Source: Burkholderiales bacterium
GTDB taxonomy: Bacteria > Pseudomonadota > Gammaproteobacteria > Burkholderiales > Burkholderiaceae_C
Reading direction: 5' to 3'
Length of the DNA stretch: 34,520 nt
NCBI GenBank assembly: GCA_030603635.1
Contig: JAUVXK010000020.1
Coordinates: 1-34,520, forward strand
Position numbers and translations under genes: made by a program. Under the pieces are notes generated by a model. That model saw only the letters and a list, made by a program, of their open reading frames with translations, was not told the origin of the DNA and made no database searches. Positions 20,211 to 24,194 of this stretch are shown here, in pieces. The number at the start of each line of letters is the position of its first letter. Position 1 is the stretch's first letter.

Positions 20211-23195
20211 ATGATTCCGAGCTCCACCCCCACGCCACCGGTCCTGGTGCGCGCCAACAGCGGTCTCGACCGCCTGTTGCAGGGGCTTTCCGTTTTCTGG
20301 ATTCCGGTGCTGGTCGGACTGCTGTCCGTGCTGGCCCTGCTGGCCTGGAACAACCAGTACGCCGCCGGTCCCGGCACCCCCGTGTTTTTCAAGGTCGCTC
20401 AGGACGACCAGCGCCAATGGACGCCTCAGGAGGCCCTGAACCAGCTCTACCAGCCGGGAAACACCCCCGTCCCGTGGCACGAGACACGGCTGTCCGAAGC
20501 CCCCGTGTGGCTGCTGTTCGACGTGCCTTCCCCCCCCATAGGCCGGCAGGGCGCCTGGATTGAATTTCCTTCCCGCCACGCCCAGCGCATGACGTGCTGG
20601 AACGCCTTCGGGCTGCAGCCCATCGGAGAGGCCACGCGCTCCGGCGCCGAGGGTGCCGCGCGGCCTTCACGAGCCGGTTTCGCGCTCGACCCGGCGGGCG
20701 CCTCCCGCGTGCTGTGCCGCGGCGAGTTCATCGGCCCGGCGCGGCTGGCCGTGCAGTCTTGGGACGAGGCCACCCTCACCACCAAGGAACGGGAATTCCA
20801 TCGCCACTCCGGGCTGCTCGACGGCGGCATCCTCACGCTCGCGCTGTTCACCCTCATTGCAGGGCTCATCAACCGCAACCGCACCTACCTGCTGTTCGCC
20901 GCCTGGCTGGTCATCAACCTGCGCATGGCGGCCCTGTCCATGGGATGGGACCACCAGTGGCTGGGCTACACCATTCCCGAAGCGTACCTGCCCCGCATGC
21001 GACTCGTCACGGTGGCGCTGTACTACGTGGTCACCTTCACCCTGTTCGCCAACCTGTTCCAGCAGGAGCTGAAGCAGGTCGGCCACCGGTGGATGATCAC
21101 GGCGGCCAAGTGGTCGTGCCTGCCGTTGCTGGCGCTGTCCTTCGTGCTGTCCTTTCCGCAATTCCTGCCCATCATCTGGGCCGCCACCGGGCTGGGAGCG
21201 GGGGCGCTGATCTTTCTGCTGGTGCGCATCCTCATCGTGTGCAACTCGCGCGTGGCAGGTTGGTACGCGGCTTCGATCGGGGTGGCCCTGTTCGCCAGCC
21301 TGTACGAGGTCGCAGCGGCGGCCCTGGGACTCAAAGGATTGATCGGGGCATTCAACAGCGTCACGGCCGCCCTGGCCTCCAGCCTGCTGGCTTCCATGGC
21401 CATCGCCGAGCAGATGCGACAGGCTCACCAGCAGCGGCTCGCCGCCCAGGCGGAGCTGCAGCACACCTACGAGGTGATACCCATCGGCCTGTTCACGCTG
21501 GACCTGCTGGGCCGCTTCACCAGCGCCAACCCCGCGATGCTGGCGATGCTGGAGACCGACGAACAGACCCTCAACCAGCAGACCTGGCAGGAGCGTTTCA
21601 CCTCCCAGGACTGGGAAGCCCTGATCGAGCGCACGCGGCGCGACGGTACGGCAGAACTCGACCTGGTGGTGCCACAGGGTGGACGACCCGAACGGCGTTT
21701 TCTGGTCAAGGCCGCCCTGGCCAGCGACAAGATCGAAGGCACCCTGCAGGACATCACCGAAAAGGCACAGGCCACCGAGCACCTGCGCTTCCTCGCCCAC
21801 CACGACACACTCACCAAGGTGCTGAACCGGCGCGGCATCGAACGCATTCTCGACATCGGTCTTGCCCAGCTCGGGCGGGGCAAACCCCTGTCCGTTGCCT
21901 ACCTGGACCTGGACCGCTTCAAGCTCATCAACGACCTCTACGGCCACGCCGCCGGCGACGCGGTCCTGCAGACCGTCTGCCAGCGTGCCCAGGCTCCCCT
22001 GAACCCCCAGATGCACCTGGGTCGCGTGGGCGGCGACGAATTTCTCATCGTGATGATGCAGACCCCGCTGGCCCAGGCCCAGGCGGTGTGCCACGAAATC
22101 CTCTCCAACCTGTCGGCCAGTGCCTGCCAGGTGGGCGACCGGGCGTTCCAGGTGCGTGGCTCCATCGGGCTGATCGAGGTCTCGCCCGGTACCCACGCCA
22201 AAGACATCCTCTCCACCGCCGACCACGCCTGTCGCCTTGCAAAGAAGGGCCAGGGCAACGGGCTTGTGGTGTTTGAGCAGGGCTCGAAGATTTTCACCGA
22301 ACACGAGGCCGAGCTGCACCTGATCGAGCAACTCGCCACCCACCAGTCGATCGACGGGCTGTACCTTGAAATGCAGCCCATCATGTCGCTGCGCTCGCCC
22401 TACGGCTCCCTGAACTTTGAGGTGCTGCTGCGCATGCAGGACGAGCACGGCCAGCGCATCCCCACCGAACGGCTGATCCACGCCGCCGAAAACGCCGGGC
22501 GCATGGGCGTGATCGACCGCTGGGTGCTCTCCACCACGCTGGACTGGCTGAGCCGCCACCAGGGTCAGCTCACCCACAACCAGTTCGTCTGCATGAACCT
22601 CAGCGGCGCGTCGCTCAACGACGAGCGCTTCATCGACGACGTCTTCGTCATGCTGGAGCGCCACCGGGACGTGGCGCCACGCATCTGCCTGGAAATCACC
22701 GAAAGCGTGGCCCTGCACGACACCAACAACACCCGCCGCTTCATCGACCGGGTGCGCGATGTCGGTGCCAAGGTGGCGCTTGATGACTTCGGTGCCGGTT
22801 ACACCTCCTTCTCCTACCTGAAGGACCTGCCCGCCGACCTCCTCAAGATCGATGGCAGCTTCATCGTCAACATGAACCGCCACCCCGCCAACGTGGCGAT
22901 TGTGGAAGCGATTGTCAGCCTGGCGCAGAACCTGGGCATGAAGACGATCGCCGAGTGGGCCGAAGACTACGAAACTGTCGAGACCCTGGCGGAGATCGGA
23001 GTGGACTACGTCCAGGGCTTCGTGGTCGCACGCCCGCAAAAGCCGGAAGTGCTGCTGACCGCCCAGTCTGGCGCCGACTTCATCGACAACGAGCCGCTGA
23101 AACAGTATCTCAGCACCCTGTCGCCCAGCGAACTGGATCACGTGGACCTGATCCTCGGCGAGGAACTGCCCCTGCCCTCGATCGACCGGCCCTGA
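20211..23195 (+). CDS. Membrane sensor with PAS, GGDEF and EAL domains (c-di-GMP turnover)
   Basis: From ATG 20211 the protein has 994 residues; ATG 20160 would add 17. A first membrane helix (about 24-46) leads to a periplasmic domain (about 47-205), then about seven helices (205-405), an architecture like 7TMR-DISM sensors. A PAS domain (about 415-520) precedes GGDEF (607-611, RVGGDEF intact). The inhibitory I-site RxxD upstream of it is absent (NPQM at that position). The EAL domain has EVL at 737-739 and retains MNLSG, LEITES, LDDFGAGYTSF, LKIDGSF and YVQGF, so it is probably catalytic. It could synthesise or degrade cyclic di-GMP; the balance cannot be read from sequence. It diverges from dinG and converges on the FeeM-like gene. 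Confidence 0.93.
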   Translation: MIPSSTPTPPVLVRANSGLDRLLQGLSVFWIPVLVGLLSVLALLAWNNQYAAGPGTPVFFKVAQDDQRQWTPQEALNQLYQPGNTPVPWHETRLSEAPVWLLFDVPSPPIGRQGAWIEFPSRHAQRMTCWNAFGLQPIGEATRSGAEGAARPSRAGFALDPAGASRVLCRGEFIGPARLAVQSWDEATLTTKEREFHRHSGLLDGGILTLALFTLIAGLINRNRTYLLFAAWLVINLRMAALSMGWDHQWLGYTIPEAYLPRMRLVTVALYYVVTFTLFANLFQQELKQVGHRWMITAAKWSCLPLLALSFVLSFPQFLPIIWAATGLGAGALIFLLVRILIVCNSRVAGWYAASIGVALFASLYEVAAAALGLKGLIGAFNSVTAALASSLLASMAIAEQMRQAHQQRLAAQAELQHTYEVIPIGLFTLDLLGRFTSANPAMLAMLETDEQTLNQQTWQERFTSQDWEALIERTRRDGTAELDLVVPQGGRPERRFLVKAALASDKIEGTLQDITEKAQATEHLRFLAHHDTLTKVLNRRGIERILDIGLAQLGRGKPLSVAYLDLDRFKLINDLYGHAAGDAVLQTVCQRAQAPLNPQMHLGRVGGDEFLIVMMQTPLAQAQAVCHEILSNLSASACQVGDRAFQVRGSIGLIEVSPGTHAKDILSTADHACRLAKKGQGNGLVVFEQGSKIFTEHEAELHLIEQLATHQSIDGLYLEMQPIMSLRSPYGSLNFEVLLRMQDEHGQRIPTERLIHAAENAGRMGVIDRWVLSTTLDWLSRHQGQLTHNQFVCMNLSGASLNDERFIDDVFVMLERHRDVAPRICLEITESVALHDTNNTRRFIDRVRDVGAKVALDDFGAGYTSFSYLKDLPADLLKIDGSFIVNMNRHPANVAIVEAIVSLAQNLGMKTIAEWAEDYETVETLAEIGVDYVQGFVVARPQKPEVLLTAQSGADFIDNEPLKQYLSTLSPSELDHVDLILGEELPLPSIDRP

Positions 23196-23216
23196 ATGCA
23201 GCCGGGCGGCTCTCGC

Positions 23217-23945
23217 TCAGTCGGGTTCGCCAATCTGCAGATCAGGGTGGTCGGTGTAGCACATGAAGTCGAGCATGGGGTGGCGAGCCGCCTCCCAGTG
23301 CTCGCGCACCCGCTTCACATCCAGGTACAGGACCCGGTGCGGCAGGTTGAACGCGTAGCTCAACGGAATGCCGCCCATGCCGGGAAACACGTCCTGGAAC
23401 AGCAGGCGCACGTACTGACGGTCCACCGGGCTGCGCGCCGCGATCACCATGTAATCCACGTCCCGGTCCAGACACAAAGCGTAAAACGCCTTGAACAGCG
23501 CCGCCTTCACCAGCCGGCCCGATACCGCATTCGTCACCCCCAGCCGGGTCGCCTCGGCCAGCCGCTTGCCCTGCATCCAGACCGGGAGTTCGATCGCACT
23601 TTGCAGCATCAGCGGGGCTGCGGCATTGGTCTGGATGCGCATGGTCCCCAGGGGCGATCCGTCCAGCTTGGACTCGGCCAGCAACAGGTAGCTGCCCGGT
23701 GCCGTGTCCGACGCTTCCGGTCGTCGAAATGCCGCGCACAGCGGTTCCGGCAGATGCCGGGCATATGCCGAATGCCGGATCTCGATGACCTTGGCCAGGT
23801 CGGCCTGCGTACGTGCGATGCGCAACGAAAACGGCCAACGCTCGGTGCGCAGCCTGCGGCCTTCATCGACATCGATGTCTGACCACGGTACCGTCTGGGC
23901 ATTCGACACCTGTTCCCCAACCCCTGTCACAGCCTGCGTATGCAT
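23217..23945 (-). CDS. FeeM/LuxI-like N-acyl transferase homologue
   Basis: This 242-residue protein resembles the FeeM N-acyl amino acid synthase and autoinducer synthase fold, a GNAT relative. Visible features are LRIARTQADLAKVIEIRHSAY (about 41-61, with Arg57 and Tyr61), LGTMRIQTN (99-107) and EATRLGV (131-137), the last resembling the E-S-R-F-V motif of LuxI enzymes. It ends in a conserved HRVLYLDVKRVREHW segment. GGAGGAG precedes the ATG at good spacing, so it should be well translated. No LuxR-type receptor, acyl carrier protein or export gene is adjacent. A GNAT function unrelated to signalling is equally possible. The N-terminal 35 residues are variable and polar. Confidence 0.75.
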   Translation of the reverse strand: MHTQAVTGVGEQVSNAQTVPWSDIDVDEGRRLRTERWPFSLRIARTQADLAKVIEIRHSAYARHLPEPLCAAFRRPEASDTAPGSYLLLAESKLDGSPLGTMRIQTNAAAPLMLQSAIELPVWMQGKRLAEATRLGVTNAVSGRLVKAALFKAFYALCLDRDVDYMVIAARSPVDRQYVRLLFQDVFPGMGGIPLSYAFNLPHRVLYLDVKRVREHWEAARHPMLDFMCYTDHPDLQIGEPD

Positions 23946-23959
23946 TCCGACTCTCCTCC

Positions 23960-23972
23960 GGCACGTGGTGCC
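23960..23972. promoter_or_regulatory. Palindrome just upstream of the FeeM-like gene
   Basis: GGCAC-GTG-GTGCC is a 5-bp inverted repeat with a 3-base centre, immediately upstream of the ribosome binding site of the FeeM-like gene. It could be an operator or a hairpin in the leader. It does not match a known lux box. Confidence 0.35.
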
Positions 23973-24086
23973 ACGATGAACTTGGACTGCGTTCCACTTT
24001 ACGCAGGAGTGGCCCAGGCAAGAGTCGGAAAACGGCTGTTTCAGCTGTCGGATTTTTTCCTACACGGCAGCCGCCAGAGCGTGGCT

Positions 24087-24106: not shown

Positions 24107-24194
24107 GGAAGCGTGGCAGAGTGGTCGATTGCACCGGTCTTGAAAACCGGCAACGGGCAACCGTTCGTGAGTTCGAATCTCACCGCTTCCGCCA
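24107..24194 (+). tRNA. tRNA-Ser (anticodon UGA)
   Basis: Acceptor strands GGAAGCG and CGCTTCC pair. The anticodon stem CCGGT/ACCGG encloses CTTGAAA with UGA at 24141-24143. A long variable arm (AACGGGCAACCGTT) is typical of Ser, and the T arm reads GTGAGTTCGAATCTCAC. The discriminator G at 24191 is followed by an encoded CCA. Confidence 0.97.

Follow-up and report, generated by a model that had tools for sequence, protein, structure and literature searches.

The question raised by this locus is whether two genes that face each other, one for a putative acyl-signal synthase and the other for a membrane-bound c-di-GMP protein, belong together, and if so what the pair could do. The window, by which we mean the whole stretch of 34,520 nucleotides that was analysed, comes from a Burkholderiales genome (G000) of 2.93 Mb and 97.1% completeness. 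It carries on its minus strand, at 23217-23945, a gene for a FeeM-like acyltransferase of the GNAT/LuxI fold (242 aa, with an ATG start), and on its plus strand, at 20211-23195, a gene for a 7TM GGDEF-EAL protein. The convergent stop codons of the two genes are separated by 21 bases (23196-23216). The 7TM GGDEF-EAL protein has 994 aa when counted from the ATG at 20211, which is an assumed start, the open frame itself running from 19839. A sequence-only reading of this DNA had described the synthase as an orphan with no receptor nearby. This was wrong, because the 7TM GGDEF-EAL neighbour proved to be a conserved partner, which is found with the synthase in 77 of 80 loci.

The synthase and its FeeM-like relatives

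The only Pfam family matched by the window synthase is PF21926 (FeeM, N-acyl amino acid synthase), at 39.3 bits where the cut-off is 27, a modest match; neither NCBIfam nor PF00765, the LuxI autoinducer synthase family, gave a match at E<=1, and no PilZ or other c-di-GMP-binding domain was found in it by Pfam. Likewise, all 47 synthases in our alignment, taken from 81 sequences (that of the window and those of 80 homologues), matched PF21926, and FeeM alone (E<=0.01). An AlphaFold2 model made from these 47 aligned sequences (pLDDT 86.5, pTM 0.83) had FeeM itself, 2g0b, as its top structural match (Foldseek E 4.5e-10), with a VIA Z of 19.6 and an rmsd of 2.6 over 173 aligned residues. GNATs other than FeeM reached a VIA Z of 15.7 at most, and the AHL synthases among the fold matches scored 15.3 (RpaI), 14.6 (BjaI) and 14.3 (LasI). 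The earlier description of a FeeM/LuxI-type protein was therefore borne out, and the structural comparison that it had proposed supports a fold nearer to FeeM than to LuxI. We read the GNAT rows in the fold searches with the synthase, like the GPCR rows obtained with the partner, as shared folds only. Searches of PDB sequences did not return FeeM, either with the window synthase alone or as a profile search with the 47-synthase alignment, where the best match was FolD, at a chance-like level.

The motifs that had been picked out from the letters are all present, and in full-length numbering they comprise R57, Y61, LGTMRI at 99-104 and EATRLGV at 131-137. Invariant in all 81 synthases are R57, Y61, R63, H64, P66, D80, D95, GTMRIQTN at 100-107, E131, R134, K152, C158, R171, Y178 and H203, and R103 and R134 may resemble conserved arginines of LuxI. 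Glu131 is the candidate catalytic residue, and from the alignments it is taken to be the counterpart of FeeM Glu95 (Glu103 in Nas354). This column was reached through the canonical relative L152 compared with 2g0b, where the Glu stands at chain index 96, the difference of one from Glu95 being taken as a numbering offset; it was reached as well by a profile-profile comparison with the canonical NasY-type synthases, which is a weak match (probability 19.7%, E 0.0012). Three of the canonical NasY-type alignment members have Asp in the catalytic Glu column. According to PMC4897644, the change of Glu103 to Ala in Nas354 abolished the phenotypes. We regard the window protein as a putative synthase of N-acyl amino acids or of other N-acyl products.

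By the features compared here, the window synthase belongs to a subfamily of FeeM that is separate from the canonical one. The NPRH motif, invariant in 16 of 16 aligned canonical NasY-type rows, is absent from the window synthase and from the 47-synthase consensus, and the canonical C-terminal region or extension is missing from the subfamily. Its PF21926 scores lie at 29-44 bits (G125, G000, G292, G025 and G291), compared with about 50-196 bits for canonical members, and some of its members miss E 1e-5 with this model, e.g. in G030, which gave no match. PF21926 matches at E<=1e-5 were found in 104 of 300 genomes of the order, those listed for G079, G201, G262 and G320 being at other places in those genomes. 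None of 30 canonical FeeM loci has a window-type sensor within about 1.5 kb, and three of the 30 have another GGDEF/EAL gene nearby. At L181, L182 and L183 (G055:C14, G143:C17 and G100:C3; three genomes of one family), a GGDEF-EAL gene directly adjoins a canonical NasY-type gene, and in the two that were checked its architecture is GAF-PAS-GGDEF-EAL. The same loci also carry a ThiF/nitroreductase-like gene (by Pfam on L181 only) and resemble stieleriacine/tyrazolone clusters; they make up a second, independent link of NasY-type synthases with c-di-GMP.

No other gene of this kind was found in G000. A match on C170 that looked like a second synthase was set aside as a member of Acetyltransf_5 (PF13444, 123.7 bits versus 21.1 for FeeM). 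The exosortase-linked NasP type (PEP-CTERM) was rejected because the exosortase family (PF09721) has 0 matches in G000, and a LuxI/LuxR system was rejected because the synthase has no PF00765 match and the LuxR autoinducer-binding domain (PF03472) has 0 matches in G000 at E<=0.001.

Upstream of the gene, the strong ribosome binding site that had been claimed is there: the Shine-Dalgarno sequence GGAGGAGAG (23951-23959, minus strand), which includes GGAGGAG, lies 5 bases before the synthase ATG and is kept in the Tepidicella loci L014 and L015. The closest synthase relatives are those of Tepidicella baoligensis (92%) and T. xavieri (77%). The palindrome noted directly upstream is real as well, and as evidence it is weak. 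The inverted repeat GGCAC-N3-GTGCC (23960-23972, minus strand) touches the ribosome-binding site and is kept upstream of the synthase in 3 of 80 loci (L014, L015 and L020), and the overlapping CGTGG-N2-CCACG at 23964-23975, of which the window has 2 copies against an expectation of 0.19, a count that one shuffle in 100 also reached, is broken in both nearest relatives. A further inverted repeat, CTGCGT-N8-ACGCAG (23987-24006, minus strand), is a possible operator and is kept in 2 of 80 loci, namely the Tepidicella relatives L014 and L015. As these palindromes are kept in close relatives only, and the energy of the upstream hairpin is unremarkable (RNA fold, z -1.34), we rejected them as strong evidence. 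A scan found no sigma-70 promoter upstream of the synthase. Between the synthase and a superoxide dismutase-like gene, so named from its sequence, lies a tRNA-Ser(TGA) at 24107-24194.

The adjoining 7TM GGDEF-EAL protein

The partner is predicted to consist, in this order, of an N-terminal helix, a RetS-like periplasmic jelly-roll domain, seven transmembrane helices, a PAS-like region, a GGDEF domain and an EAL domain. Its Pfam scores are 200.5 bits for EAL, 119.7 for GGDEF and 31.1 for 7TMR-DISM_7TM (cut-off 29), the last of which is matched by all 40 aligned sensors (E<=0.01; 40 of the 73 long partners entered the alignment). In the PAS-like region, the PAS models stay below the Pfam cut-offs (PAS_8 at 19.4 versus 21.8). 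The sensor model has a pLDDT of 87.8, and the periplasmic domain matches RetS 3jyb with a Foldseek E of 7.2e-5 and a VIA Z of 11.3 over 125 aligned residues. By sequence, 3 of 40 sensors match DISMED2 (PF07696), and the window partner is not among the matches listed. The seven helices match GPCRs with a top Z of 13.4, a value that helical bundles come near without kinship. Of 73 aligned partners, that of the window among them, 72 have an intact GGDEF motif and all 73 an intact E[VIA]L motif; the 73 rows are 72 loci and the window, L017, L049, L055, L064 and L089, which are cut by a contig end, being left out. Thus, of the earlier description of this neighbour as a convergent c-di-GMP sensor, the convergence stands and the word sensor says too little, since the domains are those of what looks like a bifunctional c-di-GMP enzyme.

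The partner is also a candidate receptor. Conservation of at least 97% is reached by 14 residues of the periplasmic domain, among them S121-R122-H123 and a pair of cysteines, and by 31 residues of the 7TM part. The mean distance is 0.43 for the 7TM part, 0.52 for the PAS-like region and 0.62 for the periplasmic domain. Because the 7TM part is better conserved than the other sensor regions, we favour the 7TM or PAS-like region as the probable ligand site. The distance correlations range from 0.43 to 0.54, and no single sensor domain stands out.

Inheritance of the pair

The 77 loci with a partner orthologue beside the synthase, either complete or truncated at a contig end, are counted among 80, the best 80 of 182 found. 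In 60 of the 77 the pair is co-directional and the synthase precedes the partner; the median gap is about 120 bases, and 58 of these 60 gaps are no longer than 500 bases. In the other 17 the genes are convergent as in the window, gaps and orientations being those of mechanical longest frames without curated starts. One other gene lies between synthase and partner in L033, and a second synthase copy in L080. The next best neighbour family reached 16 of 80 loci in a ranking that excluded frames overlapping or resembling the pair; an entry with 43 loci was discarded as a shadow frame of the second FeeM-like gene in L032. The flanking genes turn over while the pair persists. The partner tree requires one change of orientation and the weaker synthase tree three, and we claim no more than one inversion because the starred branches of the latter force only one; the pair has thus outlasted at least one such change.

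The comparative genomics that the sequence-only reading had called for gave the same answer beyond these loci. In a survey of 40 genomes of relatives, the synthase was found in 10 (G000 included) and the partner adjoined it in 9, the exception being G013. Among 399 genomes drawn evenly from the Burkholderiales, 19 have the synthase, 21 the sensor and 19 both at E<=1e-20, with a Fisher p of 1.5e-30 that ignores kinship; these genomes are mutually related and partly overlap the 80 loci (e.g. G142/L088). In 18 of the 19 a single contig holds both genes, no more than about 1 kb apart, and in the 19th (G232) both are at contig ends. The pair is therefore patchy, in about 5% of genomes, and nearly always complete, as all 19 genomes with the synthase have the sensor. 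At class level, synthase and sensor each match G000 only, among 229 genomes. Of 72,556 plasmid records, 13 have the synthase and 13 the sensor, and they are the same 13, all from Paraburkholderia or Caballeronia. One of the P. graminis plasmids, pPHS1_P, is typed as conjugative, and there the pair is annotated as 'hypothetical protein' and 'EAL domain-containing protein'.

Single genes and extra copies also occur. Three of the 80 loci have no adjoining partner. In L027 the contig ends about 730 bases past the synthase, and the same genome carries the sensor on a different contig, at its end. In L037 and L046, from Polaromonas MAGs, the synthase is present, no sensor was found anywhere in the genome, and the two share a long tree branch. 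The gene in G013 (L139:6452-7171) is a more distant FeeM-like gene without a 7TM sensor. Two histidine kinase genes flank it, of which the one for a hybrid kinase is convergent with it; this is possibly a different sensor pairing. G377 (L141) has a second synthase copy away from the sensor. Sensors in genomes where no synthase was found, at G402:C1:69392-70576 and G374:C1:263601-264770, are candidate receptor solos. Tandem second FeeM-like copies near the partner, at L032:5730-6518 and L080:7681-8508, make product diversification possible.

A proposed signalling module and rival readings

The synthase hardly ever occurs without the receptor-like c-di-GMP enzyme, which suggests that the former makes a signal and the latter receives it. 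We give about an even chance to the reading in which the pair is a two-gene acyl-signal/receptor module that would work as RpfF/RpfR does, with other parts. The FeeM fold with its catalytic column, the pairing, and the lack of a LuxR autoinducer-binding domain in G000 all support it, and the conserved pairing strengthens the neighbour's standing as the candidate that senses the synthase product. Against it stand the modest sequence match to FeeM and the weak profile-profile comparison, the missing NPRH motif and C-terminal extension, the solitary genes, the c-di-GMP links of FeeM-family genes elsewhere, which suggest control of the synthase, the PAS scores under the Pfam cut-offs, and distance correlations that favour no one sensor domain. 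What the analysis shows is the two genes with their domains and fold predictions, the intactness of the catalytic motifs and the joint inheritance; the reaction, its product, the binding of the product by the partner and the direction of control are inferred. A cytoplasmic FeeM-like enzyme would take a fatty acyl group from the acyl carrier protein and attach it to an amino acid or a comparable amine, and the amphipathic acyl product would pass into the membrane or out of the cell. There the 7TM/periplasmic partner could sense it, with the 7TM bundle or the PAS-like region as the likeliest site. Sensing would shift the partner's balance between making c-di-GMP (GGDEF) and breaking it (EAL), and cell density or confinement would thereby set c-di-GMP. 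The synthase fold would be unrelated to that of RpfF, and the receptor would be membrane-bound and GPCR-like. Somewhat more tentatively, and a little short of an even chance, it can be hypothesized that this is an undescribed Burkholderiales family of quorum sensing, carried on chromosomes and large plasmids, in which a FeeM-type N-acyl amino acid signal would act through a dedicated GPCR-like 7TM receptor with its own GGDEF and EAL domains on c-di-GMP directly, and which would include receptor-only and synthase-only species.

The main rival, and a strong one even at the rather low probability that we give it, runs the control in reverse. The 7TM GGDEF-EAL protein would sense an outside cue, and a local c-di-GMP pool would decide when the synthase makes a lipid of the membrane or a biosurfactant that serves life on surfaces, without any loop of signal and receptor. 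Nas343 and Nas354 carry a C-terminal PilZ-like, putatively c-di-GMP-binding domain and make N-acyltyrosine surfactants, as described in PMC4897644, and GGDEF-EAL genes flank the canonical NasY genes at L181-L183. The periplasmic domain is RetS-like; PMC8846402 gives DISMED2 as a predicted carbohydrate sensor, and the title of PMC8544897 names glucose-6-phosphate as the signal of SagS, which is discussed there with 7TMR-DISM. The co-directional order in 60 of 77 pairs would also fit. Against this reading, the synthase itself has no PilZ or other c-di-GMP-binding domain, 47 of 47 synthases matching FeeM alone, and the convergent order in 17 of 77 pairs shows that co-transcription is not required.

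It is less probable still, and in our view improbable, that the two proteins are foremost physical partners, i.e. that the synthase binds the GGDEF-EAL protein and regulates it, or the other way round, in the manner of RpfF and the FI domain of RpfR, any small molecule being secondary. The regulatory RpfR-RpfF interaction reported in PMC6361424 is a precedent, and the near-strict co-occurrence across genomes and plasmids would be expected; a shared interaction domain was not identified. The least probable reading by far takes the synthase for an ordinary acetyltransferase that has an unrelated c-di-GMP enzyme as its neighbour through shared ancestry. GNAT folds are common and many GNATs do match the synthase model, but FeeM stands clear of the others (Z 19.6 versus 15.7), and this reading is already contradicted by the co-occurrence: the pair stays where the flanking genes change, recurs on 13 plasmids and is kept in both orientations. 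Because the two genes occur together in scattered members of the order, they make a good candidate for a form of cell-to-cell signalling not described before. Co-inheritance of the synthase and the 7TM GGDEF-EAL protein means that the questions about a signal module are testable together in harmless, genetically tractable bacteria; carriers include Paraburkholderia phymatum STM815 and Variovorax boronicumulans.

RpfF has a crotonase fold, whereas the window synthase has a FeeM-like/GNAT fold and PF21926 matches only. The likeness to the RpfF/RpfR system of Burkholderia, which uses BDSF, lies in an acyl-signal synthase gene that adjoins the gene of a PAS-GGDEF-EAL-type receptor (PMC6361424 and PMC8846402), and rpfF and rpfR are likewise adjacent and convergent (PMC6361424). 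The same source gives 3-hydroxydodecanoyl-ACP as the substrate of RpfF and a free fatty acid as its product, and in its passage on RpfR this protein has FI and PAS domains before the c-di-GMP domains and no 7TM is named, whereas the window partner has periplasmic and 7TM domains. With LuxI/LuxR the window synthase has the GNAT-like fold in common and differs in lacking PF00765, as G000 does in lacking the LuxR autoinducer-binding domain. Among the open-licence literature matches listed, as far as their titles and abstract openings go, no FeeM-like/7TM GGDEF-EAL pair is described. The 7TMR-DISM receptors RetS, SagS and RgsP resemble the window partner in the RetS-like periplasmic domain and 7TM part; a dedicated adjoining synthase is not mentioned for them in the available text of the matches listed. 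With FeeM/NasY, the window synthase shares PF21926, the fold and the candidate catalytic Glu, and its subfamily differs by lacking NPRH and the C-terminal extension and by its lower PF21926 scores. Nas343 and Nas354 (PMC4897644) are again FeeM-type synthases tied to c-di-GMP, but there the PilZ-like domain is fused to the synthase, whereas in the window a membrane protein that would make and break c-di-GMP is encoded alongside.
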